Shown here: piece by piece, positions 28,546-55,249 of the stretch | Layout of the letters: each line of letters starts with the position of its first letter | Position numbering within the stretch: the first letter of the stretch is position 1 | Origin: Ascidia mentula | Lineage: Eukaryota; Chordata; Ascidiacea; Phlebobranchia; Ascidiidae | Reading direction: 5' to 3' | Length of the DNA stretch: 64,000 bases | Assembly: GCA_947561715.1 (NCBI GenBank) | Contig: OX387201.1 | Span: forward strand, 9,066,001-9,130,000 | Position numbers and translations under genes: made by a program | The notes under the pieces: generated by a model | What the model saw: the letters and a program-made list of their open reading frames with translations, nothing else | Told to the model about the DNA's origin: nothing | Databases searched by the model: none

Positions 28546-30390
28546 TTATTCTGACGGCTCCAAGGCATTGACATAAAACGTGGCCTTAAATCGTCGGTTT
28601 GAAATATAGTCGTTGCTGCGTAGGATAATGGTGGCCCTGTTGCTTTGCACGCCAACACTGAACGGCCCTTTTTGTCCGTGGAAAACATCTGCAAGAAACG
28701 TAGGCGGCGGTTCAAAAAGTAGCGTGAAACTGAAGTAATGTATTTACTTGGCTAATATTGCTTAAAACCCGATACTTCAATAAAACTTTCAGCACCATAA
28801 AACGACTTTATCTCTGTTTTTTTTTTATTTCAAACGTACCCTGAAGGATTTTGTCCTTTCCAACCCCTTCATAAACGTACAACAGGTCCCGACCATGTGC
28901 GGTGCTGAATTCACTGAACTGGATCGAAATCGAAGTTTCAGTGGGTCCTTTTGATCCATTTACCTTCGGGTTGCTGATAACCATCCAAACACAATCCCCC
29001 GACCCATGGTGTGGAAGGGGGTAATTGCGACTTGATATCTGACCTTGAGGTTGCGTTGCTAGTACGCTGGGCCCCCCACAACCTGGTAAATGCGGCACAT
29101 TTGTTCATTGATTTTTCTTTGTCGATTTTCGACTGTAAACTATAAGATAACTACAGCCTATAGCCAAGCCTTACTGTGGACTAAACATTGCAGTTAACAT
29201 TTAATATCAAAGTCATGTTTGATAGGATGGGATCGTAGTGGTCATTTTGGTAATGTTGTTGTGCTGTTTTTTATCGATTTGTCATGACTTTACGATCAAA
29301 TGTTTAATAAAATTAAGACGCAAAAACCTGGTGCTTAACTTACAGTCTGTCGTATATGCGAGGGGAGTAGATATGCTTACCAGACGGGCAACCGATTTCA
29401 TCGCTCATATCGTCGCAGTCTAACTCGCCGTCGCAAACCTTGTGCATTGAAACACACTTTCCATTCAAACATTTATGCATTCCGGTACACAGACCCACGT
29501 CATCGAAGAAATACTCAAAGTAACGCGACCTATGGAGAATACGAATGGAGTTTTCAACAAATTTGTAACAGTTAATTAAACGTATGTTTTGTCACCTAAC
29601 GCCCTTTAGTAACTTTTCACCGGTAGGTGGAGCCAACAAGAAAGCAATCGGTTTTCCTGGGGAAGAAATATAGGAGCTGGAAGACGTTGTGTGATCATGG
29701 ATCATATTATCATCATCCTGTATAACTCGTATGGTCCCACCACCACGAATTGGATTTACATTCATTTTGGGAATACGCAATATAGCCACTTTTCCCTGAA
29801 AGATTAATATCAGAAGTTGCCATAAACACGAAATTGGTTTCGTGGTGTATTAGAAAAGTCTCACATGTTTCTACTCAAAAACTTCAATTAAAACGCGAAT
29901 GGAAAAAGATCTAAAAAGAAACCTTTTTTGTGTGACATCAATAAAAACGAAGAAATATTTTAAATTTAACTTTCAATTTATAAGCAAACATGATTTATCA
30001 AGCACAAATTAGTTTATAAAAATGTTCTCACCTGTGGCGGCTTGATAACCCATCTGCAAGAAGTTGGTGCAGGGTAATCGACTTCATTAAAACGGATCCG
30101 CTTAACTCCTATAACTGTATTATTTCGCCAAGACCTGCGCGCATCATCGAATGAAGTGTGATCCACGACGAGCTGTTCATCGGGCAAATCTACACCCCGG
30201 GAAGCGAGACGCGAGTAATAAAGTTGGCGAGGATCCTTTTTGGGATCGTAGGAGCAACCAGAGGTGCAATTTCGTTCGTCGGCATTGTTAAGTGGACAAT
30301 CGACTTTACCGTCGCAGATGAATTCGTGTGGGATGCATTTGATCGGGTGCCGTGAGTTGACGGGATTGCAAGTGAACTGGCCTGGACATG
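28546..30390 (-). other. Giant mosaic: C-terminal LDLa-CUB-LDLa-CUB block (exons 67-71)
   Basis: Exons 30032-30390, 29596-29795, 29381-29529, 28840-29082 and 28546-28688. Exon 67 opens with an LDLa repeat ending [19 protein letters not shown] and runs into a CUB domain. Exon 69 is a clean LDLa ([16 protein letters not shown]). Exons 70-71 form the last CUB, starting [20 protein letters not shown]. The acidic Ca2+-binding residues of both LDLa repeats are present. The protein ends NALEPSE. Confidence 0.88.
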
Positions 30391-33300
30391 CTGCAATACA
30401 GTTGTGACATTAAGTTCATTTCATATTTTCAATGTTTAATCAAACGATGATATCTAACTTACCATCTTTAAGCATCCTCTCTATCCACTCCACATGCGTC
30501 TGCCCCACTTGCATGAAGTAGTTGGTGCCGAGGGAGACACCTAGTGTCGGGTCATCGTTCGGCCAGACTGGAGAATTAACAGACAGTAAGGCACTGCCTT
30601 TGGAAAGATAAAAGGATATAGTGAGGATTATGGCAATTATGCCAAAGCCTTCGCTTGCGGTTAGTAAAGCACAAAGCATGAAACCCCGACACAAGCTGGA
30701 GATAGAGTTCTGACTACAATGCATTTACACTTAATCTTCTTGGGTTTGGTTTGTGAGAAGCTTATATGTGTGAACTAAGCTGCAAGTACGTCAAACTTTT
30801 TTTGTTGTAATATACGGATTATTTCCAAATATATTTAACTATATTTAACTTTTTGCAATTACAAATTTTACCAACCTTTCGAGACAAAAAAAATCAAAAA
30901 GCAATGTGCAAAAAAACCATTGCTCAAAAAAACAACATACATCGCACGTAAAGCTTTAAATCTGAACGGATTTTTGGAAACAAAAACTACTATTTTAGCT
31001 AAAAACCTCCGAAAGTGATGAAAAAGGTAGTTAAGTCTCCGTGTACACCCTGCATGTTACACACCCACTTACTGTGCATGTTGTTCAAAATCGACGTGTA
31101 ATTCGGCGTGACAAAATTTCTGTTGAAATTAATCCAACTGCTGAGGCCAGAAAGAAACCAACGATTGTCGTGTCGCTTGCAAAACAGTGCGACTCCAGGG
31201 TCGTTCTAAAAGTAATGCAAATGTCAGCAACTGTAGCAGTAAGTCGGAAAACATGATCTATTGTCAGCGTATAGCTTTCAGTGCGGCTTACCAAGTACGC
31301 TGACGTCTTCACAGATTTGTAGCCTGCACGAATGACTGTATTTAGCTTCAGACCGCCATCGGAAGACGTCGGACCTGCAAGACAACATTTGATGTAAAAT
31401 TACCTTGTTTTTGTGCAAAACCATGCACCTAAGGTTTAAACGTAACTTTTCGAAACCGTGACTCAAGCGCAATACAGGCTATACGATTTCACCTGAGTTT
31501 TCAAGCAAGGAATTCATGCATAACTGGCGAGTTTCCGAAACTGGGTAAGTTTCACAGAAGAGATGGGGAGCGCTTTTCTCTGATGACGTAACGAAAACTT
31601 TTGATTGCCGCAAACTCCACACCAGACGTTCATCCTCAGCCTCACTACAACGTGAAAAAGGCATTTTAAACAATACTGCTGATACTTTACGAAAAAATTA
31701 TTTGGCCAATAGCTGCTTATGTAGTATTATGGCTTTATTATCTTAGTTCACCTTTTGATAGCCGAGTGTCCGATGGCGAAACAGTGCGCCCTCTTAGGTT
31801 TCCCACTCTGCGGCTCAGACAATGACGTGGGGTGTCGTTCCAGCTCCTCTGGAAGAGGGAAAATGCTCGTCTTTGATGATCGGCGACGTCCAGTTTTCGT
31901 GTTTGAATTTGACTCGAGACATGCGGACATTCGGGGCTCGTGATTGGTAATATTCATCCCGGCATCATTGAGTGTTTCGTAAAATACATCTTCTTCCTCC
32001 GGGACATCCCCGCTGTCCGTCTCAACACTGATTTCGGTGGAAAGGAGCTCATCATCCAGCTCGACTTTTAGTAACGCCACATCGTTGTAAGCCTTGTCGG
32101 CATCTTTCAGCAATGAATCGAACTTTTCAAGGACAGACTGAACGTCTTCGGTTGAATTTCTTTTCGCGGTTGAAGCGGAGACGTAATCAGGATGCAGAAA
32201 CCACCTGGAGACTCGCCAGGTGAGAGGCCGTTCAGTCTCCAAGTCAGGATTTTTGCTGCTAATCAGAATGTATGAAAAAGTGGACGGCGCATCGGGATAT
32301 CTGCCTGCGTCATCAAATTCTGCGCAACAAACATAAAAATTTAAACCAATTCTGTTTGGGAATTGTTTTTTTACTGTTCATAATCAACATTTTAACATTA
32401 TGACAAACAAACCGGAATGGGTCACAAACCTGTAAATATAGCGAGAGTTCATGAATTTATTCAAGTATAAGAATCCAAAATTTAATATTTCGTCGTAGTT
32501 TTAAACCACAACCAACTTATTTATTCTTTTATAATTTACTCAGCAAAAAGGTTTATAATAAAAGTTTGTCTACAGAGACATATAATTTTCTAACTTTGGG
32601 TGAAACGTCGATGGTGACGTTAACCAAGACAGCGCGTGCGCTTACCTGCCAAGAGTTCACCGTCTGGGCCAATTTTATCCGCGTCGTACAAACTCTTGGT
32701 GTAGCTGTCATAGAGGTTCGGATTGAGAATACAGTGGGCTGGAACAACTGCCCAGTTGACTTGAATGAAAACGGCACTACAGACAAAGGTATAAGAGGAC
32801 GTTGTACCACCGGTGTCTCCGTATTCTTTCATTACATCAGGTTTAGCGACGTACATTCCAACCACCCACTTCCAATGCTCCATGTTGGGGACATTCTAAA
32901 AAATATTACTGTGTAAACCGTGGTGTCCGGAAAATACTATCGCATAACTATTGGTTACTAGAGTAGTTGCTGGTGCAAGTTGGTGGAGAGGTTAAAATCA
33001 GGCCCTTAGAAATAGTAAATATACTTACTATTATGTGCCATTTGGTTTTGATTTAAACATACAAGTTTATGACTAATATTTAAACTAAATATTTTTTTTC
33101 TGTATTGATAGAAAAAGAAGTTTAATAAAGAGTTCACTTACTGGAAAACGAGAATCCAGTTCATCGTTGCTGCTTTGCACACCACAGTCATCATCTAACG
33201 CCGACGCGACAGATTCGTCATCATCTGGAGACTGCACATTACACAAAGCTTCGTCGTAGCCACCAAAGCAGTCGTTGATGCCATCACAAGTAAAATGTCG

Positions 33301-36300
33301 TATTTTGTTCAAAGAGGGATCTCGTAAGGCGCAGCGGTCCACATTCTTGTCGTCGCATACTAACGCCTCGGTGGTGTTGGCCGGGATCGTTTCTGCACGA
33401 AGTTACAAGAATTTAGAGCATTACCATTAGAATACGTTACATTGCATGTTCGTCTGAGTCTTGTACAGAACCATTTGCCAACTTTTATTTACAGTTTAGT
33501 TGATAAACTTTCCCACCTGTTGAGCACATCTGCCGTAAAGCAGACACACAGAAAAGTTCGTCCGAACCACTCATGCAATCCCTCACGCCATCGCATTCCA
33601 CCACTTTGGGTACACACTCACCTAAGAAAAAAACTGTTTTTACAAGAATAAATGTGTGTGGAGTTTAAGTGAGTGGGTAAAACCAACAAATATAACTATA
33701 TTACAAGACCGTTTCACATTACTTGACGTTTTATTGTATGGTAGCCGTCTTCAAAAAAGCAAGTCAGTTTATTTGTTATTATTCATTCTAGAGTGGCAAT
33801 GGTTGCCAAGACGTATTCCTGTTGGAAGCGTCGCAATACTATGTCGGACAATTATAAAGCAATGTATTTTAGAGAAAATTGCTACCGACCTTCACTAGTC
33901 AATCCTTCGGCCGTCAGACATTGGTGTTGTCCATCCTCCACGCATTTCTTCTCACATTCGCCTTCCAACACTTCAACGTTATCAACTGCGGTGTCCGATT
34001 CGAACGTGCGTCCTCTAACACCCTCAAACATAATCTGCACGCACATGTATTTCCGGTCATACAATAATCAACAAACTATAATCTGCTTCCAGTTTTGCGA
34101 TACAATTTTGTATAGGTATGAGCGGTGGAATGGTTATTTTAAAACAAGAAATAGAGTATTGCAGTATTGAAAGAAAACACACCCCATTTTCTTTTTTTCG
34201 ACAAAACGTCTATGTTAAAACATATTTATTTTTGTACATTCGCATTCCTATAGCTTGTGAGGAATCAAACAAAATATACGATTCCTCGGTATAACTTTTA
34301 TATATTTGGCCTCCTTGAACTTAGGTTTATAATTCTATAGCAAACAAATATGTCAGTTTGAAAACCATTGAACCGCACCCGGAAGTTGTTGAAAGGGTAA
34401 AAAGTAACAGATGCAGTCATCCAGGGACTTTCATCAAACCTCCGTTGTTGATCGGATCGACTCCACAACAAAAAGCGCTGCGCCCTGAAAATTAAATCAA
34501 CGAAACGCTCAAACTGCTAATCAAGACAACAGTTAATCATTAATTTACATCCGGCTCTCGCTGTTCTCCTCGGTAGTCTTGTCACGTATTCCAGATCCGT
34601 AAAGATAAGCAAGAGGTTCAGTGGATGCAACTGATTCTGTCCCGTCGTCCTCCAGTTCCGACTCGGTGTAGTTCCTCTGAAGTGACAAAATCGCGTAGAC
34701 GTTCAAGAATCCATGAGCTCCCCCGTACATGTCGTAAGAGAAGTGGAGGCACCGAGCGGCGTCGGGGTCACCACTTAAAACGGGCGTCAACATGCGTGCT
34801 CGGTCTCCCTTCTGCTGTGGCGCCGATGCCTCAATGTACATGTAGTGACCTGTGGAGATTGACGTACGCAATGATTATAATCATCGTTCAGTTTTCTGTA
34901 AACTTTCTGCATTGCAATGTCGATGTAAATGTGTAGTCTTCAATGCTATGTGGACATTGATCTACCATGTTGTTTCTTTCGTGTTATATACAATGTCATA
35001 CACTGTGATCCAAAGTTATGTGTATTATTTTTCGTGGCAAAATTTTGCTTCAGTTGGAGATGAGGCGATTTTTAAGCTAGTCAATACCGTGGATATTTCA
35101 TCTTTAAAATTTTGAAAACAACACAAATCAGGAGAGATTAGAAAAAATTACCATCTCTGGTGGCGGAGTCGTCATAAGGAGGACCTGTTTTGTCCGACGG
35201 TGTCGAGTAATTGTTTTTCGCCCAGGTGAACTCACTCGTCTCGAAATCGTGCTCGAAACCACATTCATCCGCGTCAAAATCACAGGAAAACAAAACAGTT
35301 TGGTTGCTCGATCTTTCTTCCTTTTGGGGAATTTGGTGAGTTATCAGCGAGGCCATAAAACCTTTAGAGTAAATTAAGTGTTGGTAGGTTAACCAAAGTG
35401 TGCTTAAGGCTAATAAATATAGAGTTGCTACATTTATTTCGCTCAAATAATAAACCTGTTACACTGTACAACAAAAAAACATATCTATTGTTGTGGGTCT
35501 CGTTCCAACGCACTAAGAGGGAAATGAGAAATGGAATTTATGGAATGCGAATGGCACACAGCGGGACAGTGTACGGAAACATGTATTCACATTTACCTTG
35601 AGGATGCACGTAGTGATCCGAATAGAAGTGAATGAACATCTCGTGTCCCGCAGAAAGTTGAGGAGGGATAAAAGAATTCCTCTGATCACAAAATCTTCCT
35701 ATCCTGGGAGATTCGTTGTTGGTTCCGCTGTACAATGATACCCCGTCATAACCACACGTCGAGTCGGCTTCAATGAACATCGTTGAAAATTCAAGTAATA
35801 TCTATACGCAAAATTTGTTTTATGTGTGCTCATAGCTGTCATTGGAAGTTGGTAAATTGGAAAACATATTAATTAAAATCATATTGTTGTCAAAAATATT
35901 TTATTATCGAGCTGATAAACTGTTTCAACTGCGGTACCGGTTAAGTCTGTTCGGTAGTTCGTTCAACGAGAAAAAAATATTGTAACCTATTCGTCGAAAA
36001 TCCAGAAAAATCATCATTACAGCAAAACTTATATTCATTTTTTCTGTGCATGTTGCACTTTGTAACAAAATAGTGCGGCTGGAGTCAACAATATTACAAT
36101 TTTACAAAATGTCCTTCCCATGACCCACCTGGTAACCTGGCACAGTTCTGAATTGCCACATACACTTTGAATCTTGGTCGTACTCCTTCGGGAAGTTGGG
36201 AGATGTAATAAACCAGCGGTCCTCCGATTTCCAGAAGGTTCCCTTGCACGTGACGTTGTCGGGAAGTTCGACACGAATCAGTGGAACGCCGGAAGCCGAC

Positions 36301-39300
36301 GATTCCGGAGTAGATTGTAAAGAATGAGGCCCTATGTACGAAACGGCACTTAAACTAGTGTATAGTATAGTACCTCTTTTACTTGTTGTTCGAAATTTGC
36401 GAGTATAGTCGAAGTTATACGCCTTGTGGGAAGCAAGCATTACAGTATTTTAAAAATGCACCTGCAGTGGTGGTAGCAGGAGTCCTTGTAACGAAAATCG
36501 GCATAGGGAAGTTAGTTGAACGACTAAACGATAAACCCAAAGCAGATTTGATAGAGCGGATCATACGACCTGGAATAGGAACGGGAACAATGATAATCAT
36601 ACATTAAAATTCCTCAGGTTTCAAAACGTACGTGAACGGGTTCCTCCGATGGTCTGTACATCGTATTCGTCTATGTTGAAAGATGACTCGGAAGAGACAA
36701 GCGTTACGTGGTAACTGATGTGAAATCCTATACTGATCGGTAAGGTTTGGTTGAAAAGGCGCAGCGACAAAGTCAGGCCTTCATTTTTTTCATCTGAAAA
36801 AGTAGAATGGGCAATTGATGTTTAAAATATAAGCTTACGATCCATAGACATTATATCGTAAATTGGATTTTTTTTTCCACAATGGCCTCGAGTAAATATT
36901 CAATACTTTGGTAAAAACTCACCTTTGAAAACTATCAGTGGTTTCCGAATAGGAATGGAATTCCCCATTATTCCGTCGTTAATTGGAATTCCTGTAAAAC
37001 GAAATAATAAACTCATAATTTTGCCACTACAATTGATGTTTTTTCCCTCAACTTTCTTACAATGCCACTGGCAGTGCTGGAAACTTCAAATTTACGAGGT
37101 CATTTTATATTGCAATTATTTACATATTTTAGATATTACTTGCTACCTCTATTAACATATCACGAACGCCCAACCTACCATCAATTATAGGTAAGTTTGT
37201 TGGAGCTGGCGGCACCCACAGCGGATCGAGACAATAGTTCTCCGTCGCTTCCGACCACGAGATATGTGAAGGAACATCCGCTAAGAAAGATACCAGGTTG
37301 CACCAGCTCACGTTGCCGCACCTGAAAGCGACAACCTCGTCAAACAAGTGGAAATAAAAACTTGTTGACATAGATTTGCAAAGTGTTGGGTCAGTGTTGG
37401 GCTTTAGCATGAAAAAACATTTGGCCGTATGCGGGCTGAATTGCCATTCTGCCATATTTTGGAGGGAACTTCACTTTCTTTGCACGAAAGTGCCTATTGT
37501 GGCATCAGTCACGTCATTCTTTTCACAGAAACTAAGCATTTAAATTCATTTGTTACATTAGAACTTATTGAAACAACTGAATTTAAACTCTGTCCCTTGT
37601 TCGTCGTAGTTGCATTTTCTGGCCAAACTCCAATAAATTTTCGGGTAAAAGTTACGAATCGATTGCTCCGTGTTTGCAAAAAAATAAACGACTTGTACGC
37701 ACTTGATGAATAGACTACAGTTGAGCAACGTAGTGACACCTTCGTTCTCGTTGTTTTCAAACATAGTGTAAAGGTCGCTGGAACACGTGTTTGCTGAAAA
37801 TCTCGTGAATGAATGTCTGAAATGTTTTTCAAAATCATTATAAGAGTAAGTGCCACTTTTAACTAAGATGACAATATGGTATTGTTCACATGTTACAAAA
37901 ACTGCAGAAGTTGTTGAAATAATGATGTTCATAGTTGTTAGATGAGTTAATTAGTTACAATGATGGCTACATTATTAACGAGTATGTTGGCATGACGGAA
38001 GCTTCGATTCGCTTGCATTTCACTTACAGACATTGAGGTTGGGCAGCTATCTGGCCTGCGATACGGTTGATATCAGCTTGCGTTAAAAGCGGGGCAGTTG
38101 TTGTCGGTGAATGAGTGGTTGGTGCTTCTGTGGGGTTGTTTCCAGATCCGGATTCACCACGGATATCCGAAATAAAGTTGCCGTCTGCCAAACATTGTTT
38201 AATTTTTAAATCCTGCTTAAGGATAATCTAAATCAACCAACAAAGCTTCGAGCTGGCTTGGAAATGTAATTTCTTTTAGTGAATAGGTAACACGTAAACA
38301 TTAAAGCCAAATCTAAGAATCCGCTCGTTAGCATAACTGTTGAAATGAACTCACTGTGAACCAACTACCTGCTGTAAAAACGGCAAAGTTGCGTGTTTTA
38401 TGGAAACGAGAGTTTACAGTAATCGAGAGTAGACGAGTTTTCCAATGCTACAGAACAATCATCGTCATACCCATAGCGCTCCTCGCTTCTACAAAAGCAA
38501 GGGGTTGTCCCGACACCTCGTCGCCAGCGTATATTTCCAACTTCTCCTCGAGGTCGTAATAATCCACAAGTAGTATAATCGTACGTCCCTCTAAACTGCC
38601 ATCTGCAGATCCCAATGCTTTAGGGTCGATTCTCCACAAGCAAGTGGAGTTTTCCCGGAACGTTACGAAGTCGGGGAACCCATCAGTTGAGATGACGCCA
38701 GAAGTTTCCGTGAAGGTTCTCGTTGTACAGGTGACGTTTTCTTGTTTATCATTCGCTGTATGTGTTTGGTTGGTAGTGGTTGCTACCTCCAATGTGGTAG
38801 ATGGAATTGGGTCTGTGTTAACATGTCTATACTTAAACAAACGTCTTTAACATATAGCCTACGGATCAAAAAATAGTAAAGCCACAGTTTTAAATGTTTT
38901 CATACTAAAACCTAATAATAAGTCCAATTCTTTAATCTCAATATACGTTGTCATGCGGACTCTTTATTATAGTTCAATAAAATGGGGTTGCGATGGAAAG
39001 GAATTCAATTTGTCATAGACCATCTCATCTCCAAGCCACAATACTTTAAATATAAAAAACTACATTCGTCTGTGAAAGTACCAATTACTCCAACATGCGG
39101 AAGGTGTGTGTCATGCTTACCCAAAGGGACATCGATTCGCAAATCAATTTCTTTCCAGGAGGAGCCAGTCCATACGTTCCACGAAACCCTGATGTCAGTT
39201 GGAAGTACTGAGCTATCATTACTATATAACCACACGCTGCTCTCTTGCTCACCACCTAGTGAATAAAATGATTCTAGTCTGCTGGTATTTTTAAAGTCAT

Positions 39301-45300: not shown

Positions 45301-48300
45301 ATTTACACTCAACGTGAAGGACTCCAGCGGCAAACCGACCATGTAATAACTAGAAACATGAAATAACGCAACGTAGTATCGGAAGTTCTAAGATCAACCA
45401 GCACGTGAACACCGGCACAAATAGATGTAACTTTTTAATGTGGAAAAATCTCAGGTCGAACAGTGCACGTTGCAGGTTAGAGGTTTATCGCACCTGAAAG
45501 TCAGACACCACCGGTCAAACTGCGATTCCGGTTCCATCCGGCTTTTTCCGGTGGCTTGACGAGGCCCTGTTCCTCTGGCGATCGGGATTGAGAAAGTCGA
45601 AGTTGTTTCCTCGGTTCCGGTACCGTCAAAGAACAAAAATCTGTTCGGCTCCATGAGTAGGCGGTTCTCAGGGGAGAAGTCAATCACTTTTTGAGGGATT
45701 GTAAAATTGCACTCGTAGTAGATGGGTGAGAAATAGGGGTGACCTCCGTTGTGATGGGGGCCGAAGATGCCCTTTGCAACATGCTCGAAGAAGTCGATAC
45801 GCCTGTATCCGAATACACCTAAAAACAGGGATGCAGGTTGATTGTGTTGCTTAAACGGAGGTAATGCTTGTTTTGTGTTTTTGTTAACTTTGGGGGACAC
45901 AAAAATGCTGTTCGTGAATGGTAGTTTTTGCGCCCACCAAAGCAGAAAACTGTATGTTAAAATTGAATCAAATGGAAACTTGGCACTTTAAAACCTTTAA
46001 AAGTAGGTATAATAAAATTTGTAAGGCAAAAACAGATCATCTGAGGACTTAGAAAAAGTTTAAATCGTACCTTGACAGTGGATGTACTCCCCAACCCGAT
46101 GAGCGTAATCATCAGCTCCGACGAACTCGCAGTGGTCTTCACCCGAGCCAAACCCGTCAGCAACATTACGGAACACGCCATGGAGAGTTTCGCTGAGGTA
46201 AATCTTGTACCTGTAAAAATGTGGTTGGTTATTTTATATTTTCTACTTTCCTGAATTTACAATCTCGCACCTTGTCGAACTGCAGAGCACGATGCCAGTG
46301 AACTTGGGGGCTCCGAAAGACGATATTTGACGAACGAGTTTAACGCCGTCGCACTCACTGCAGCCCGGTGTGTCGTCGAGTTCAAAATCAAAGTAAAACC
46401 ATTCTGGACCGAGTTCCTCCACCGGATTCTGAACAATTAAATTGTGTGGGGTTGGGAATTACGACTCTTCAAACATTACAACGAATTTACAAAACTGTAT
46501 TTGTAATAAAAATTTGGTCTGCCTTTACTGGAGATATGAAATACATAACATGCGTCAAACCTCATCCAGAATCTCGTGACTCGATTTTTCAAAGACCAGC
46601 GATCCCTTATTAAAAACAGGAAGCACTTCTGATAATATTGACCACTTGGAATCCTTCTTGTTTGCTGCAAAACAGTTCATTATACATAACTTATACATCA
46701 CAAATCTTTATTGAGCAAATCTTTATTATCCTTGTAGCAAACGTAATTACGCACAGAAGTTGATCCTTACTGTAAACGCTAAGCCAGTGGTTCTTCACCG
46801 TTGTCAGCGTCCCTTTAAAATTACCAAATATTTTTCTCTATTGGAAGCATTTTATCCCCACTTTACTATTTTATGGAACAGATTTCGCACCCCTTACCAC
46901 CTCCGATATGAACCATTTCGCAAATCAATAAACTAACACAAGATTTGCCCGACAACAGTCTATGTCTGCACTGTTTCAATTTTGATGTCAGTTCTAATCA
47001 GAGCAAAGCAATGTCCCTTACCCCCTTCGAAGCCACACGCACTTTGATCGAACGTACAAGAATGACTGACGTTGCAAAGGCCGTCACGAACGATGACATC
47101 ATCAAGAGCAACATCGCTGCGAAAATCTTTTCCTCGTACCGCTTGAAACACAAGCTGCAAACACGATAAATTTTACATGACAAAGTCGGTTTGATGTATT
47201 TCGCCATCTCCTCAAAATTATGTTACCTGGTAGAGGCCGTGGCGATTAATTGACACAGAGGCTTGTTTCCAAAAGACGCCTTGATTTCCAGTGGATCTCC
47301 ACATCGTCTCCGTGTTATTTGCGCCTTTGTCCATCGCGGACAACGACAAGCTTCCCATTCCTTCTCCAAACATATGATAAGAGAACCTGAGACACAAGCA
47401 GCAAAGTGGTAAACACGCTATATCGTTTTACCAACAAAACCACTTCGGTTAATTAAATACAATTTCTGTTATCAAATGCACACTCCCTATAGTTGTGGCA
47501 TACTCGACGCAAACTGGAGCCCAAAACCACGTGGATATCAGGCTTGCTTTTGATCCTTCATCGTATTGGGTTGCTTCCGCTAAAATGTATGTACCTGCGA
47601 TAAAAATAATATCAATGAAACTAATCAGCAAAACACTTATCAATTCACCGAACTTTTGGATAAATCGTTTCCGTTTAATGTATTAATATTGAAAAACAAA
47701 TACAGGAAATATATTTAAGCAAGTTTGCAGTTTGATTAGGTAGCGTGGTTGTCTTACTGTTAACTCTTAGCATCGTGTGGTCCAGTATAGGGCCGGTCTT
47801 GTTTGAGGGTGTACGTCCATGCCATAAAATCCAGTCAAAATCATCGTCGGACGCCTGACTCCACAAACAGAAATCTTCTTCGAAATCGCATTTCTGCTCC
47901 TGCACCGGACAATTTACCTCGTCGGAACTGAAAAGGAAATTGTGGGTTGACTGGGAAAAATGATCCGTTGTGGAAAATCGTTGAAATTCGTTCTTTGAAA
48001 AAAAGTCCAAGTTTTTGTTTAACGAACAATATCATGCCAGTAAATAAATAAATAAGTTCATACACTCAGTGTAAAGCTGAAAATGCCGATCAAACAAACA
48101 TCTCTACAGATGTATTATATCAAGATATTAATCAATACTTCATCTGTATAGAGTTGTCTGGTTGATCGGCATTTTCAGCTTTGCACAAAAACTCCCGATA
48201 CAGTTATTTATCCACAGTTGCCAGGGTAGCATGTTACAAGCATAGATGCACTATGATTTGTATTCCTTTTTTATTTCTGCACTCAGTGACATCAGATCAC

Positions 48301-51300
48301 TTTGTTTCATTAACCCGTCTTTAAACCCTACCCATCTCTGCAGTCCAGACGGCCATCGCACACCACTGAATTCTCCACACAGCGGTATTGATTTTCACAG
48401 AGAAGCATTGAAGCGTCAGCGCACTCTTCTGGAGCGATCTGGCTCATCCGGCACATCTTGGAATCTTCGTCCTCACCGTTCGGACAGTCGTTTGTTCCGT
48501 CGCAGACTAGAATGGTGCTCACACATGCTTGAGTGCTGTGTTTGAAAACAAAAGAAGCAATCGTGGAAAACGTAAAAGGAGACATTGAATTACCGGAGGT
48601 AAATTTAAAGAATTGTGAAAGCCCCCAGGCAGTTCATCCTTAACATAAATAACTGAGGCGTTTATATACTTTCATATTTCTGTTATTACATCTAAGAAAA
48701 CGTTTCTGATCCATTTTGGCTGAGATGCCATTTAAGTATGATAAAATCTCCGACTAAGATTTATTTTTCAATGTATTCGGTATGGCATTCGTTTGTTGGC
48801 TAAATTATGCATATTTTTAGAAACCAATGATTAGTTTGCCAGCAAACGTACCGACCTGTTGGCACAGAGCGTTTCCCACGGGTGACACTGCCCGACGCAT
48901 GTTGAACTGGCAATCGACTGTGAAATGCAGACCTCTTCACAGGAATGCATGTTGCTTGAACAGAGAAACAAAGGGTCCTCTTCATTATCCATCAATGCTG
49001 AAACAAGAATCGCAATTCGATAAAACCACAATAAAATTACCAGAAGAATGTTGGTTAAAAAAGAAGCAAAATCGGTGATTGTGATTTCCAATAAAAATTT
49101 AAATATTTGGTTACTCACCATCCTCGTAAGCCTCGTAATCCTGGGTCGTGATGGACGTCAGGCCCGAAAGGGAACCGAGAACGAGAGAAAAACTCGATTC
49201 TTCACCGTACGAAGCATCCGACGGTATTCTGTCGAACTGGTAAATTTTGTGCTCAGCGCTCACAACAAACGTGTGGTTGTTCAGCAAAGTGAGCGACGTT
49301 GGCTGAATTCTTGTGTGAGGATCAGTTGATGGAGTCGTTGTCAAAACAACGCCGCCGTCCGAACTGAAAGGTTATTTTACAATGTTAACAGTGCACAACA
49401 AGATTTTCCGTTAGAGTAATATGTTTTCTCCCTTATCGGAATTCAAAAAAGAGTAACAAATCGATCAGCGTTAGTGAATGTGATCTTATTTTGTTGAAAC
49501 AGAGACATAAATTTCGCCTATTTAGCATCGTCAGTTTGTTATATTCAAATGGAACCATAATCATTTTCTCAGCATTTTTCTTATTTCTACCTCATAGAAT
49601 TAATAGAGGAGAACGAGGAGTCGACCCAAAGCAGACGCTTGTTTGGTTGAGAAAAGATAAGTGATTGAGGTCTGATGATGGGATCGGTGAGGAGGATTTT
49701 ACGGTTGCTTCCGTCCATGTCGCTTCGCTCAATGCGACCCCACAAATCCGCCCAAAAGAGGTTTCTGAACAGAGTTTATTGTGTTGGTATTTTTCTCACA
49801 CTTCCGAGAAAAAGCAGTTCTAACCCACAACCAATAACGTATTAGTTACGCTTATTACACACAGGGTGTTTACAACAACAAATACACCACAAGAGGGCGT
49901 AGGTAATCCGGATATCTTTAAAGGAAAAAACATCCTACCTTCCAACAGGATCCACAGCAAGGCCAATAGGAGTGTAGAGATATGTGGTGACGAGGCGTTT
50001 GTCTAAACTGATAGAAGTTACACCAGGGGTTGTGGTAGTGAGCCGGGCGACGCCAATGCTTCTGCCTGCAATATCGGTCCAGTACACGTTGTCGTCGTAC
50101 AGATCCAAGGCAAGGCCCACGGGCTGCAGTAAACCTGATGTCGCGGCGATAAAATAGCCATAATTAGACATTGGTTGGCAGGTACATGTTATCGGTGGTT
50201 TCTGAAATCAGATACCGCGGAGTTTTGCCCTGTTAAAGGCCTTGCTTATTTTGGAAAGCGGGTACTTAGCATGTTAAAGTCGAAATTACAATATACAATA
50301 AAATAGAGATATTGTGAGAATGAGAAAAGCGACGCGTAAAACACAAGTCATGGTAACCAAGCAACGTACCTGATACAATAGTTTTTGTGTTGGACGGACT
50401 GTCTACGTAGGTGGTCTTGATGCTTCTTGTTTTACGGTCGATCCATATTATCGAGTACGCCCAATAATTCTTGTTGTCAGCAACTGTATTGCGATTAACA
50501 GCTTTAGTCTTGTGGCGATGAAGGACAGCGTTCACCACTCCTCCCGGCGCAGACACCAACATCTGGAAAGATACAAACCTTTGACTAGGTGCGAAGAACA
50601 AGTGTCTTGCAATACGCTGTATGTTTGAGCAAGCATAAAAAAATTGAATTGGAAAAACCCAAATAAGTACCACGATAAGTTCTCTTTTTTCCAATATATG
50701 GATATATGTGTTTTTCATGCAGCTGCTCGTTTTGAATAATTTCGCATTTTTGTGTGGAAACTTTGTGGCTCTAACAAACTGTTTGTGGCTGTAAGTTTGG
50801 TCTAATGTATGTACCTGGGGTTCAGACTGTTCTGAAGTTGAAGACGAAACAGCGTAGACTCCGTCGGAGGTAGAAAGAATAAATGAACTTTCCAGAACTT
50901 TCGGCGGGGACTCCTCAGCTGAAAGCAATTCAAACAAATTTGTTGACAACGAAGATAAGGCACTTTGTGAAAAAGGCAACAAAGTTTCTACATTACAAAT
51001 TCGGCAAAAAATGTACGTTTTCCGAGTTACCTTCGCTGCAGCGGGCAAGTCGTGCGATCACAGGAGAACTTTTTACACCGTGACTTGCAGTTTTGCATCG
51101 AATAACATGAGGTGAACACGGAGCGAGGTTGGAGATAGTGAAAGGATAAGCATGAGTTGATCTTGTAGAGTTTCTCAGTCGTGACGATAAATCGTGTCTG
51201 AAACAATGAGTTTGAGAAGATCAGCCCAGACAAGTAGGTCGCGAGTTCCGAAGTAAGACCTTCGCAAATATCAAATCGAATGTAAAGCGAGCACATAGGT

Positions 51301-54300
51301 AATATTTATACCGTATAATGTAATATGTAAACATGGCTTTAATGTTCCTAAAGTTGGCTCTGCCAAATGTATCAGTGAGTTGAATGTTTGAATTTAAAAA
51401 GGGTTTCTCGAATCAGAAATAACAATGTGTAATTTATGACAAAGTTCTCATTGTGACAAAATTAACAAAGACCAAAGTCCAATAGAATGCAAATTTTTGT
51501 AAGGCAACAAAAATGGCGTAATAAAATTGGGATACAAGGTGGTCATGGCACCGGCTGGTTCATTACTTCAGCATAGATTTTTCTACATTGACAGTTTATA
51601 TGGAAAATGACTCACCTAACACTGAAGCGTCCATATGGTGACACAACCTCATAATCGATTCCATCGAATTCGCTAAGAGCTTGAATGAAAGTATTGATTC
51701 TTACCTCTGTTGAACTGACTCTTTGTACTTCGATTCTCCTCGGCGAAAGCGGTGCTGCGTATGAAAATATACAAGGTGGTGTTGGTGTCATTATGTGGTT
51801 AGTTTCAACTGCAGGTACTTTTTTGTTGAAGGTGGATAAGTAGACAGAGCTACACATTAGAATTATATGTTTAATGACCAGTTTCATCTTAATTTTTTTT
51901 TAAAAAGCACGTATTTTGTTAGACTTCGTCGCATTTACAATAATGGGTTAAGCCACCACTTCCCACATTACTGGCCTGCCAATATTTACTCAGATAAAAC
52001 CCAAATCACTTTTTCCCTCACTTACGAATTACAACATCAGTCCAACTTTGGGTGGAGATGTTATTGGATTGTGCAACTACCAATATCCTGTACTTCACAC
52101 CAGCCTTTGCGCCCGTGAAAAAGCGCTTTGTTGCAGTTGCAGGCATCGTAATAAGATGAGGTAATTCTGGTGAAATGAGTACCTGCATTTTTTTGGAAAA
52201 TGTTAGACGAGAGGTCACACGATGTGCGAAATGTATTTCACGTGTGAGGAAATCTAATCACATTCCTAAGGAGTCAGTCAAGGTGCAAAATTTCTACCAA
52301 CTCCGGTGATTTGAACCGAAAGTTTGGTTGACTGCAAAGTCACCGCAGCTGTGCTGATGAGATCTGATAGGTCGAAACAAAAGAGTCTTCTCTCTTTGTT
52401 TCACTTATTACCGCCTATCATAATACTGTTAAAATACAGTTGAATTTGTATTCTATTGTTGCTACAACGGCGTTGTGTTTGCTATTACTTAAATGGAACC
52501 ACTGAACGCTGTGTATTTGCATCGACATAGATGACTAACCGAATTTCGCTAAATAAAGACATTCGGATTTTCCCGAACCAACCTGGTAAACAGCGTTCCC
52601 CGCAATCCTCTCCCATTCCACCTCTATAGTAACATCAGTTGATGAAGGTAAACAATTACCGCGGGCCAAAACAACACCGGCCATCGCTCCGTACGTCAAC
52701 TAAACAGTAGGATTATATCAGGGATTATCGCGAGACAATCCTCATCACGAAATGAGCTTACCATTAGTTTTCCTTGAAGATCGCACGGCGGATCGGTTAT
52801 GAGGTTCGTTCGAAGGTTCGTTACTTTTTCTTGATCTGTAAAGAAGATGCATTAAGGAACACCATATACACGAGATACATGTATCAGCAGTTTCGGTCGC
52901 TACATTGCTTTTCTCTGTACTAATACTTTTAGCAGTCACCATGTAACCCAATGTACACTCGTTAAGAGTTGTGCAGCAAATGCATTACTATGTTGGAACG
53001 TTAATTGCGGCCTAAAGTTAAACCGCCAGTGTAGACATTTAACAGGGTATCCGCGTACAGTAAATAATTGCTTATCGCCCTATTGGCAGTTAAAATGGTG
53101 ATCTTAAATAAAGACCATTTAAATCACAGTGCACGTGCGCGATCTGAGCCAAAGCCAATTAATATCAATCCCAAAACAGGATTCACCAAACGATCAGTTT
53201 AGATCCTTTAGTGATTAGAGAGAGCGCGTCTAGCGGTCCACGGGCGTGCCGATAACATTGTGTTAGCGGGAAGTGGTATATACTCTACAAACAAAAATAT
53301 AGCGATGATTGATCTGCCGCCTTGACGACGCAGATAAAGAAGGTCTGAATGGAAACGCTGGCGACAGCTGCGAATTCCTTCACTAATGTCATAAACATAT
53401 CGAGGTAATTTACCTGTCGTGTACGTGAGCTGCCTTGTAAATTGCGATGTATTGCTGTAGACGGAGGTAATGGTGACGCTGTACTCAGTCGCTGGCGACA
53501 AACCGGATAAAATAATCATTCGCTCGCGGAGCGTAATTTGCAATGTCGCCTCCTTCGGCATTATGCTGACGTCAAAGCGGAGGGGAGGGGTATTTCCCGA
53601 TGCCGTGTGGATGGTGATTGTGTTAGTTCCGATTGTGGCGCTGCCGATGTTGAAATTTGGATCATTTGAAGGGGCGTCTGAAATGAAGCAAAACTTTTTT
53701 ATCGTTTTACGGTTTATGTTCATTTTTGCTTTGGATTGGATCGCTCGTTGCAATTTAGTTTTGTTACTTTGCAAAGCACGGATGAAGACAAAAATCGGAC
53801 TTGCGAAACTTTTTGCCTAAATATAGCCCAGAAGAAGCATGCATTTAACTTGATGTAATTAATTTTTTTTAACAAATTCAGACCCTGGTTGAATACTTGT
53901 TATGTTGATTTGTAGCAAAACAAAACCATCCATACTAGGCACAACGTTGGCTTTCTTTACAGCGTTCGTAAGAATTGTCTCGGGTTTGGAAAATTTGGTG
54001 CAAATCAGACTGAGAGCAAATTCAGATCCGTTTCCCGGGAGCTCGTTGGTATCACTCAGCATGATGACACTTTCCTGCAATGTGTAAAACAACCAGAAGG
54101 TTTTAAATTAACTTTGTTCACAGATTCGACTCGTTGGCTATCAGAGATGGAATCACAGTTACAAGGTACTTACATGATCAGGTTCTGACGTAATTGGAAG
54201 CAACTCTGAAGCAACCGCTTTATCCAAACCGATCGCAGCGATTCTGACTCCCGCTTGTCGTAATAACGTTGCCATTTCGATTGCGGGGTCTTTTGAGGCT

Positions 54301-55249
54301 TTGCCAACCACAGCGAAAACCATAGCAGGTCTTTCTCTGAGGACGAATGCAATTAAGTGTTGTTGTAGTATAATTTATGCGTTCAAGTTCCGAAAGCTGT
54401 TTAAAACATCCGCCTTCTTCAGCGTTGCTTGACGAGGATAGAAGTGCTTTTTTTGCTTTGGCACATGTATCGGTCACTTTATCCTAGCACTTAACCTTAT
54501 GCTTTACTAAATATAGCAGGAACAAAACAGGTTTCCAGTCACCCACAAATAAATTGTAAATTATATTTTCTGTGGTGCTTGGTGCGAACTGCGTAATACA
54601 CACGTAAAACTTAGTGTCCCCCGCAAAATGTGGATGACGCATAGGTCGCTAAAAAATTTGGGAGAATTTACATGCCTCATTTGTACCACATACGCTCGAG
54701 GCAAATTACCTCGTTATTTACAACCAACAAAATAGTTCATTACTGGAATGAGGAAAAATGCGTTACAAACTAACCGCCATCGCGATCTGGTTTTAGAGGA
54801 AAACAGATGACGCTTCACGATGCGCAGAGCCCTCCTCAAAAGGATCGGACCTTTTTGAGACACTTTTATTTGTTGAAGTCTCATCGAGAAGTTGTGGTTA
54901 TTATCGAAGGCGGCAGAGTCCAACACCAATGAAGTCTGCCTGCTAAACCTGTGTACCAAAATGTCATTATCTTAAAAAGCTTGTAGATAAAATATGAAAC
55001 AACTTACGTAAAAACAAGAAATCTTGAGGTTTTAGCATTGAGGTCTATTGAATTGGAGACTTTGGATAGAAACCCACGAATATTATCTAAGCTTGCTGCG
55101 TCCCGGTTTAAATTTCCGTCAATAAGAAACACAATGTCCATTGCTTTTCCACGTGCGCATTCAGTGTATTTTGATGCCACAGATTTCTCCACGTGACAGC
55201 ATAGAAGCAACAGCACCAGAGCGAAATTAAATCCAAGGCTCTTTTCCAT
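28546..55249 (-). CDS. Giant secreted mosaic protein (4,150 residues) with one active and one inactive serine-protease domain
   Basis: Seventy-one exons run from the ATG at 55249 to the stop at 28546. Every donor/acceptor phase fits and the total is 12,453 bases. The start was chosen because it opens with [19 protein letters not shown], a signal peptide; an in-frame upstream ATG at 55363 would bury it. Domains in order are VWA, FN3 repeats, a YWTD propeller, an EGF-like unit, two LDLa, several MAM-type units, LDLa, CUB, LDLa, SRCR, an active protease, CUB, two novel regions, CUB, a Thr-rich linker, a Cys-rich region, CUB, MAM, LDLa, an inactive protease, LDLa, CUB, LDLa and CUB. No membrane segment follows the signal peptide. 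The LDLa-CUB-LDLa-SRCR-protease part resembles enteropeptidase. No start-type signal peptide or end signal breaks the chain inside, so I read it as one gene, though transcripts could be split. An extracellular matrix or immune/cascade role is inference. Sub-blocks are listed separately. Confidence 0.85.
30463..33621 (-). other. Giant mosaic: LDLa pair and inactive second serine-protease domain (exons 59-66)
   Basis: Exons 33517-33621, 33142-33392, 32646-32895, 31752-32319, 31493-31644, 31292-31374, 31073-31205 and 30463-30597. The first two carry LDLa units ([16 protein letters not shown] and [16 protein letters not shown]). A trypsin fold follows. WAVVPAHC keeps the His (about residue 3400) and [10 protein letters not shown] keeps the Asp (about 3509). 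The nucleophile loop reads NDPGVALFC, with Pro at about 3700 where Ser is needed. The end [11 protein letters not shown] matches the C-terminal helix of the fold. Exon 62 adds a long acidic insertion rich in Glu and Asp after the Asp motif. There is no IVGG-type activation site. I call it a pseudoprotease. Confidence 0.82.
33890..36331 (-). other. Giant mosaic: CUB and MAM block (exons 53-58)
   Basis: Exons 36129-36331, 35597-35801, 35152-35361, 34549-34849, 34379-34484 and 33890-34034. A full CUB domain starts at [20 protein letters not shown] and ends in exon 55. A MAM domain begins [15 protein letters not shown] and ends with [19 protein letters not shown]. It contains the [10 protein letters not shown] core. 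The last exon then enters a Cys-rich piece ([13 protein letters not shown]). Confidence 0.85.
36632..40582 (-). other. Giant mosaic: CUB, novel regions, second CUB, Thr-rich linker and Cys-rich region (exons 41-52)
   Basis: Exons 40468-40582, 40158-40312, 39763-39879, 39576-39697, 39406-39493, 39121-39255, 38471-38812, 38028-38184, 37703-37816, 37179-37468, 36923-36991 and 36632-36793. A CUB domain directly follows the active protease ([20 protein letters not shown]). Exons 44-46 form a region I do not recognise. Exon 47 carries most of a CUB-like unit. Exon 48 is a Thr/Pro-rich stretch ([12 protein letters not shown]) likely to be O-glycosylated. Exons 49-50 are Cys-rich without a clear family. 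The acceptor of exon 50 (about 37468) is the weakest splice call in the gene. Confidence 0.7.
40695..41977 (-). other. Giant mosaic: SRCR end and active serine-protease domain (exons 36-40)
   Basis: Exons 41814-41977, 41410-41588, 41190-41317, 40925-41109 and 40695-40854. The chain reads [16 protein letters not shown], so activation would cut after Lys about 1979. A Cys upstream (about 1963) can tie the light chain. The triad is complete: ITAAHC (His about 2020), DWDIALLEL (Asp about 2070) and GDSGGPLVC (Ser about 2165). The S1 pocket is unusual. The residue at position 189 (chymotrypsin numbering) is Gly in KGICHGDSGG, and position 226 is Asp in [11 protein letters not shown]. That pair is known from crab collagenase, so broad specificity is predicted rather than strict trypsin or enteropeptidase cutting. 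Confidence 0.9.
41651..41716. repeat. Short fold-back hairpin in an intron of the giant mosaic gene
   Basis: The arms GTGAAGGATGTTACAACT and AGTTGTAACATCCTATACTTCAC pair over about 20 bases around a loop of about 20. It lies in the intron between the SRCR/protease exon 36 and exon 37. It may be a MITE remnant or a small hairpin RNA; nothing else is visible. Confidence 0.55.
42302..43827 (-). other. Giant mosaic: LDLa-CUB-LDLa-SRCR block (exons 31-35)
   Basis: Exons 43662-43827, 43265-43493, 42855-43000, 42612-42792 and 42302-42494. The first LDLa is split over exons 31-32 ([10 protein letters not shown] then SDEIGC). The following CUB starts [14 protein letters not shown]. The second LDLa reads [16 protein letters not shown]. 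The SRCR-like unit has [20 protein letters not shown] and ends in exon 36. The same order stands before the protease of vertebrate enteropeptidase. Confidence 0.87.
43971..47927 (-). other. Giant mosaic: MAM cluster (exons 19-30)
   Basis: Exons 47758-47927, 47504-47594, 47227-47386, 47022-47154, 46561-46664, 46271-46428, 46071-46210, 45494-45818, 45218-45349, 44992-45149, 44475-44679 and 43971-44146. MAM 1 runs from [12 protein letters not shown] through [15 protein letters not shown] to [13 protein letters not shown] second begins [12 protein letters not shown] but is degenerate. A third is long (about [19 protein letters not shown] to [12 protein letters not shown]). A fourth, more divergent unit fills exons 28-31. 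MAM domains mediate adhesion and dimer contacts in the extracellular space. Confidence 0.78.
46788..46900 (+). mobile_element. Probable hAT-type MITE fragment
   Basis: CCAGTGGTTCTTCACCGTTG followed by GTCCCTTTAAAATT and later CGCACCCCTTA resembles the ends and body of non-autonomous hAT elements. No transposase and no matching opposite end were seen. It lies in the intron between exons 22 and 23 of the giant mosaic gene. Confidence 0.4.
48069..48187. repeat. Fold-back (MITE-like) element with about 50-base inverted arms
   Basis: GTGTAAAGCTGAAAATGCCG at the left is matched by the reverse complement at the right (CGGCATTTTCAGCTTTGCAC). The inner arm CTACAGATG / CATCTGTATAG continues the pairing almost to a short loop. 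The whole unit is about 118 bases and lies in an intron of the giant mosaic gene (between exons 18 and 19). Confidence 0.75.
48332..48997 (-). other. Giant mosaic: EGF-like unit and LDLa pair (exons 17-18)
   Basis: Exons 48856-48997 and 48332-48535. The EGF-like unit follows the YWTD propeller ([19 protein letters not shown]), as in LDL-receptor family proteins. Two LDLa repeats follow ([18 protein letters not shown] and [10 protein letters not shown], the latter completed by SDEVNC in exon 19). Confidence 0.83.
49119..50918 (-). other. Giant mosaic: YWTD beta-propeller (exons 12-16)
   Basis: Exons 50815-50918, 50370-50562, 49939-50134, 49591-49764 and 49119-49363. LDLR class B blades are seen as [36 protein letters not shown] and [15 protein letters not shown]. 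The propeller is closed by the EGF-like unit of the next exon, the usual arrangement. The intron 50563-50814 is 252 bases and open in frame. Confidence 0.84.
51031..53677 (-). other. Giant mosaic: fibronectin type III repeats (exons 5-11)
   Basis: Exons 53414-53677, 52762-52835, 52583-52699, 52302-52331, 52026-52182, 51616-51754 and 51031-51197. The first FN3 is one exon and ends with the typical [17 protein letters not shown] strand. A second is split over four exons, one only 30 bases long, with [15 protein letters not shown] near its end. A third, weaker unit fills exons 10-11. The 30-base exon borders a ribozyme-like repeat. Confidence 0.78.
52346..52404 (+). ncRNA. Hammerhead-ribozyme-like motif, copy A (intact core, weak stem I)
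   Basis: The conserved core CTGATGA is at 52354-52360. A stem II hairpin follows (GATC-TGATA-GGTC, 52361-52373) and then GAAA at 52374-52377. Stem III can form between CAAAAGAG (52378-52385) and CTCTTTG (52392-52398). Stem I has only about three pairs and the cleavage-site spacing is one base long, so activity is doubtful. It is antisense to the giant mosaic gene, in the intron upstream of its 30-base exon 8. The upstream flank AAAGTCACCGCAGCTG matches copy B. Confidence 0.6.
53897..55249 (-). other. Giant mosaic: signal peptide and VWA domain (exons 1-4)
   Basis: Exons 55008-55249, 54775-54948, 54174-54336 and 53897-54074. After the signal peptide the chain reads [19 protein letters not shown], the first strand and MIDAS region of a von Willebrand A fold. 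The usual DxSxS motif is DGNLN here, so metal binding may be weak. Later strands include [16 protein letters not shown] and [14 protein letters not shown]. Confidence 0.83.

Follow-up and report, generated by a model that had tools for sequence, protein, structure and literature searches.

Organization of the giant gene

The window, a 64,000-nucleotide stretch of Ascidia mentula contig OX387201.1 (here C69, positions 9066001-9130000), contains a giant gene on the minus strand, which extends in the curated model from an ATG at 55249 to a stop at 28546. Minus-strand open frames with domain-like sequence span this entire interval. Every intron was picked as GT-AG, and curation was performed by hand from reading frames and splice-site scores in place of a free gene finder, whose models showed wrong frames in several exons and were set aside. 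The first curated model comprises 71 exons (12,153 nt; 4,050 residues) that join into one open frame with zero internal stops, with introns of 59-593 bp (median 171 bp; phases 0/1/2, 15/33/22) and a largest gap in the open frame of 593 bp. Addition of two exons (39255-39121 and 38353-38238) and relocation of one donor yielded an extended model of 73 exons (12,423 nt; 4,140 residues; introns of 53-578 bp). By eye, the former exon continues a W-rich module and the latter completes a CUB fold; the 71-exon version may still hold at 38353-38238, since both donors in this region have low scores, -1.0 and 1.4. The single open frame of the initial annotation is thereby reproduced in both models and its 71 exons in the first, the length being 4,050 or 4,140 residues instead of the 4,150 given there. 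Weak splice sites include the exon 7 acceptor (-1.2), the donors at 40694 (1.8), 38451 (-1.0) and 38237 (1.4), and the one that follows exon 35 (1.3).

When trained on 32 predicted genes other than the giant gene (47 kb, from a 264-kb region), a coding model gave the model frame the highest score of the three frames in 64 of the 73 exons, with a total score of +10 versus -1112 and -970 in the other two frames. The absolute score is weak, being positive in 37 of the 73. Compared with 1,480 pseudo-exons, length-matched where possible, the exons have a mean percentile of 0.86 (KS p 7e-24), with exons 2, 9 and 54 under the pseudo-exon median. Exon 54 (36569-36462; percentile 0.09) is doubtful as a real coding exon; both of its boundaries are in phase 1, and the frame therefore survives its omission. 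Judged by these coding measures, the giant gene is real and more than a series of chance open frames.

Table 1. Features of the giant gene, from start to stop codon (window positions).
Feature	Exons	Position	Strand	Evidence
Start codon and signal-peptide-like stretch		55172..55249	-	Stronger hydrophobicity of two in-frame candidates
VWA	1-4	53991..55141	-	PF00092, E 4e-18
Three FN3-type domains	5-11	51032..53657	-	First, PF00041, E 9.7e-8; FN3-2 and FN3-3, by eye or weak matches
YWTD beta-propeller	12-16	49120..50907	-	PF00058, E 5.9e-10, two stretches
EGF-like cysteine module, directly behind propeller	17	48864..48968	-	By eye; no Pfam match
Two LDLa	17-19	47909..48866	-	PF00057, E 4.9e-12, two stretches
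MAM1	19-22	47074..47893	-	PF00629, E 1.4e-33
MAM2, N-terminal part	22-23	46561..47061	-	PF00629 profile 1-26, E 0.029, under cut-off
TARSH_C	24-26	45709..46404	-	PF21731, E 1.2e-27
MAM2, C-terminal part	26-28	45062..45711	-	PF00629 profile 72-157, E 9.4e-11
MAM3-like stretch, tentative	28-31	43769..45064	-	By eye alone
LDLa-3		43475..43753	-	PF00057, E 1.5e-7
CUB-like (CUB-1), LDLa-4, SRCR	32-37	41916..43465	-	LDLa, E 2.5e-6; SRCR, E 2.1e-4, under cut-off
S1 serine protease, complete triad	37-41	40696..41870	-	PF00089, E 3.1e-63, full length
CUB-2	42-44	39669..40547	-	PF00431, E 1.7e-16, best stretch profile 1-84 of 110
Unnamed GEY..RPVYKQ..W..W module	44-46	39122..39650	-	No Pfam match
CUB-3, weak, splice choice uncertain	47-48	38296..38729	-	PF00431, E 0.052
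Linker, ~250 residues	49-54 (54 doubtful)	36462..38238	-	No Pfam match
CUB-4	55-57	35336..36248	-	PF00431, E 2.1e-22
MAM4	57-60	33954..35287	-	PF00629, E 1.1e-27, two stretches
LDLa-5 and LDLa-6		33241..33944	-	E 4e-5, just passing cut-off; E 0.022, under cut-off
Pseudoprotease, S1-like, Ser195 replaced by Pro	62-68	30464..33186	-	Best PDB match TMPRSS6, E 0.0026
LDLa-7, CUB-5 (weak), LDLa-8, CUB-6	69-73	28567..30388	-	PF00057, E 1.5e-13, two stretches; PF00431, E 9.5e-16
Stop codon		28546..28548	-	Curated model

Domain architecture

Domains were called with Pfam profiles and their cut-offs, and weak ones by hhalign, PDB matches or eye. The chain begins with VWA, three FN3, YWTD, EGF-like, two LDLa, MAM, a MAM split by TARSH_C, and a MAM-like stretch; its middle consists of LDLa, CUB-like, LDLa, SRCR, S1 protease, CUB, the unnamed module, CUB, the linker and CUB; and it ends with MAM, two LDLa, the pseudoprotease, LDLa, CUB, LDLa and CUB. 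Matches above the Pfam cut-offs were obtained for VWA, one fn3, Ldl_recept_b, LDLa, MAM, CUB, trypsin and TARSH_C, and FN3-2, FN3-3, MAM3, CUB-1, CUB-3 and CUB-5 are weak matches or by-eye calls. From the domain list first proposed, Pfam recovers VWA, one FN3, YWTD, LDLa, MAM, CUB and one trypsin, and leaves SRCR under its cut-off. The propeller and LDLa domains match LRP/LDLR structures, such as VLDLR (E 4.5e-32).

Alignment of the weak domains to their counterparts in the same chain by hhalign gave graded results. CUB-3 aligns to the other CUBs with E 3.2e-4 (probability 39%); CUB-1, which has no Pfam match, aligns to the strong CUBs with E 6.6e-4 (27%), and CUB-5 with E 0.0095 (4%), its Pfam CUB_2 match being E 0.024. 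MAM3 was rejected as an established domain: it has no Pfam match and no MAM among its PDB matches, and its alignment to the strong MAMs yields E 0.1 (0.6%) versus 0.47 for a shuffle.

TARSH_C, overlooked in the initial annotation, scores 97.5 bits against a Pfam cut-off of 27, which places it within the family. Its flanks match MAM profile positions 1-26 (under cut-off) and 72-157, which suggests an insertion of TARSH_C within one MAM domain; two separate partial MAMs flanking it, with no insertion, are a possible alternative. ABI3BP (TARSH) and FNDC1 contain TARSH_C and FN3. The giant protein shares with them a TARSH_C with FN3 upstream, and differs in that its TARSH_C is internal, apparently within a MAM, in a protease-bearing mosaic.

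The mid-chain serine protease

S1 domain 1 carries a zymogen site, K|IVGG, at 41873. Its closest PDB entries are TMPRSS6 and hepsin, with plasma kallikrein, factor XI and enteropeptidase also in the list. Full-length alignment to TMPRSS6 and hepsin keeps the AHC, DIALL and GDSGGP motifs, with a Lys preceding IVGG, and in the PDB alignments His57, Asp102, Ser195 and the IVGG activation motif are all present (positions 57, 102, 189, 195 and 226 are given in chymotrypsin numbering). The specificity pocket has Gly at 189 and Asp at 226 (GICHGDSGG versus DACQGDSGG and KPDVF versus KPGVY in hepsin), an arrangement that presumably resembles the pocket of crab collagenase (brachyurin). S1 domain 1 is apparently an intact latent protease, and the latent mid-chain protease first proposed is supported by its triad, GDSGGP, K|IVGG and trypsin match. 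About 1,930 residues lie C-terminal of this domain in the model.

The C-terminal half and the pseudoprotease

Below the protease, the GEY..RPVYKQ module may resemble a motif of other marine deuterostomes. The linker exons 49-54 reach percentiles of 0.91, 0.74, 0.89, 0.64, 0.85 and 0.09 among pseudo-exons.

The second S1-like domain has diverged at its catalytic center. Its PDB alignments cover the His and Ser regions, with AHC kept, and the Asp (NDVALL) is kept by eye; NDPGVA occupies the place of GDSGGP, with Pro for Ser195. In hhalign, an 18-residue segment of this domain aligns with one of the same length, and the comparison with S1 domain 1 gives E 5e-4 (probability 30%). IVGG is absent, and the Pfam trypsin search returned no significant match (E 0.14). 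An active protease at this position was rejected, the catalytic Ser being replaced by Pro; read from these motifs, the second S1-like domain is a pseudoprotease, and the two serine-protease domains of the initial annotation become one protease and one Ser195-less relative.

Domain searches of the genome (195.8 Mb; 79 contigs) were run exon by exon, so divergent copies may escape detection. At this depth, we found no second TARSH_C, and the pseudoprotease, the linker and the unnamed module likewise yielded no further copies. The closest S1 paralogue shares 35% identity, and only two distant matches were obtained for the VWA-FN3 start (24% and 22% identity). Outside the window, CUB and trypsin matches occur at C69:7136703-7137566 in an open frame reported as 3,792 codons, possibly a giant single exon, and an 82-kb region at C67:10634366-10716617 has dozens of MAM matches, all on the same strand, probably representing one or more MAM-repeat giants.

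One transcript or more

The locus probably gives one transcript. With the map including by-eye domains, 50 of the 70 junctions of the 71-exon model fall within mapped domains; the other 20 lie outside any mapped domain, chiefly just past the protease and at 39.4-36.3 kb. Owing to these 20 junctions, a single transcript is likely rather than proven. False domain orders arise in large part from errors in gene prediction, according to one paper (PMC3927609), and this is the main caution here.

An unconstrained gene finder divides the locus into two separate models (55363-37181 and 34841-28400); a run allowing zero-length exons returned one gene (55363-28386) and was discarded for faulty settings. 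The division is consistent with two genes or operon cistrons, an enteropeptidase-like gene ending at or soon after the protease followed by a CUB-MAM-LDLa-pseudoprotease gene, a reading that we consider unlikely. Tunicates use operons and spliced leaders. Directly after the protease there is the weak donor at 40694, whose read-through meets an in-frame stop after ~21 residues, with an AATAAA at 40653, so a short form or a split is possible; in addition, junctions 41/42 and 44/45-52/53 of the 71-exon model are outside domains. Against a split, CUB-2 follows across a gap of 112 nt, behind a strong acceptor (7.0) and in an open frame that lacks any Met upstream. Moreover, all but one of the six linker exons rank above the pseudo-exon median, and the hydrophobic start toward the CUB-4 half, at 36600, looks poor.

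That start emerged from a crude scan for signal-peptide-like starts, which returned 19 minus-strand candidates, counting the proposed start, versus 12 in a control scan of the opposite strand. Among the 19, only the proposed start (hydropathy 3.37) and 32832 (2.37, weak), inside the pseudoprotease, share the frame of the model exons that contain them. The start at 50718 (3.46) exceeds the proposed one, and a transcript spliced from there would lack exons 13-14; 30679 (3.0) is continuous with exon 68, which lies midway through the pseudoprotease; and 36600 (2.4) reads into CUB-4 by way of the doubtful exon 54. On this crude scan, none of the alternatives looks like a good second-gene start.

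A long transcript may instead be accompanied by a short one ending after the protease or its CUBs, which is possible but not what we expect. HrProacrosin and HrOvochymase offer a parallel, their genes being reported as apparently identical and their mRNAs as different (PMC9265791), and retention of the intron after exon 41 would lead into the in-frame stop. The AATAAA is, however, a weak sign, being 1 among 39 AATAAA/ATTAAA sites of the scanned stretch.

Comparison with known proteins

The domain mixture of the single-transcript model looks new, and its general kind is known in sea squirts. The same domain order was not met among the open-licence papers listed, with queries holding less than the whole domain set. 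The Halocynthia roretzi ovochymase comprises S1, two CUBs, S1, three CUBs and an S1 without triad (PMC9265791). Like this protein, the giant protein appears secreted, with an S1 within the chain, CUBs between, and a final S1-like domain whose triad is not functional: at least two S1 separated by CUBs are present as S1, CUB-2, CUB-3 (weak), CUB-4 and the weakly recognised S1-like domain, the last lacking its triad through Ser195 to Pro. Unlike ovochymase, for which S1 and CUB are the only domains described, the giant protein adds VWA, FN3, YWTD, LDLa, MAM, TARSH_C and SRCR.

An S1-CUB-CUB-S1 cluster, read exon by exon, lies elsewhere in the genome at C72:8562501-8566700, suggesting that the giant gene is not the sole candidate ovochymase of the species. 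A protease in mid-chain had been called rare; its mid-chain position stands in the model, and its rarity must be qualified because ascidian ovochymase alternates S1 and CUBs (PMC9265791) and the C72 cluster has a similar makeup. Within polyserases, multiple S1 domains per chain also occur, and adhesive modules of the present kind go unmentioned for them in the accessible part of the source (PMC1435904). In Nematostella, 24 other domains have been described in combination with S1, some of the S1 domains being non-catalytic (PMC6767649), so new S1 combinations are to be expected in animals.

Enteropeptidase (TMPRSS15) resembles the giant protein in having MAM and LDLa upstream, and its CUB-LDLa-SRCR stretch before the protease has a possible counterpart in the giant protein. 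Within the CUB-LDLa-SRCR-S1 run, the LDLa and S1 assignments are secure, whereas SRCR is under cut-off and the CUB has no Pfam match. One continuous alignment to the enteropeptidase heavy chain 7wqw_A (E 5.1e-4, weak) covers the region from the CUB-like domain up to the end of the first third of SRCR, and the top-ranked entry for CUB-LDLa-SRCR has E 2.7e-5 overall and E 0.021 for the collinear piece alone. Unlike in enteropeptidase, the protease is not C-terminal in the model, and would be so only if the locus held two genes; the pocket has Gly189/Asp226, not Asp189/Gly226; and a Pfam search of the giant protein found no SEA domain at E up to 1. As regards a membrane anchor, crude hydropathy is 1.63 at the N terminus, with internal windows of 1.58 at 1617 and 1.56 at 3284. 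Identity with enteropeptidase was rejected.

Proposed function

We moderately favor one gene encoding a secreted mosaic of ~4,100 residues that would act as an extracellular adhesive scaffold with a latent serine protease. The secreted mosaic of the initial annotation agrees with the signal-peptide-like start and the domain series. Another trypsin-like enzyme would cut after the Lys of K|IVGG, and the light-chain Cys (QCGVRS..) and the Cys of ..SPACLP.. would hold both halves by a disulphide; through this predicted link, the active protease would be tethered between MAM, LDLa, CUB and SRCR arms. The arms and the pseudoprotease may select partner and place, and the Gly189/Asp226 pocket is predicted to confer a non-classical substrate specificity. 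The egg coat, tunic or another matrix is our guess for the site.

Adhesive modules make up most of the chain and the other S1-like domain is without Ser, as would suit a purely structural matrix protein whose intact S1 domain is never activated; retention of the triad, GDSGGP and the activation motif, together with a trypsin match over the full length, makes this quite improbable. Within the favored scaffold reading, a more specific proposal, which we hold as doubtful, is that one chain combines a propeller head of LDLR type, a protease core of enteropeptidase type and a pseudoprotease tail of ovochymase type, with TARSH_C in MAM, and that the pseudoprotease would serve as an intramolecular regulator of, or docking site for, the tethered protease.

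The gene would illustrate the extent of extracellular domain shuffling in a sea squirt, combining modules of several separate vertebrate proteins with a protease that appears functional and another that is dead. If it gives one transcript, both a matrix-tethered protease and the insertion of TARSH_C within another domain become open to test.

Other features

Upstream of the giant gene, a protein-kinase exon is located on the minus strand at 58949-59251 (PF07714, E 1.3e-5). A leucine-rich-repeat open frame occurs on the same strand at 15179-15904 (LRR_8, E 1.6e-29). ATP:guanido phosphotransferase exons occupy 1801-2791 on the plus strand, where a C-terminal-domain piece precedes an N-terminal-domain piece, suggesting tandem domains or tandem genes. 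The COX1 open frame contains 18 AGA/AGG codons, 16 of them within the best PDB alignment and 13 of these 16 at Gly, which fits the ascidian mitochondrial code.
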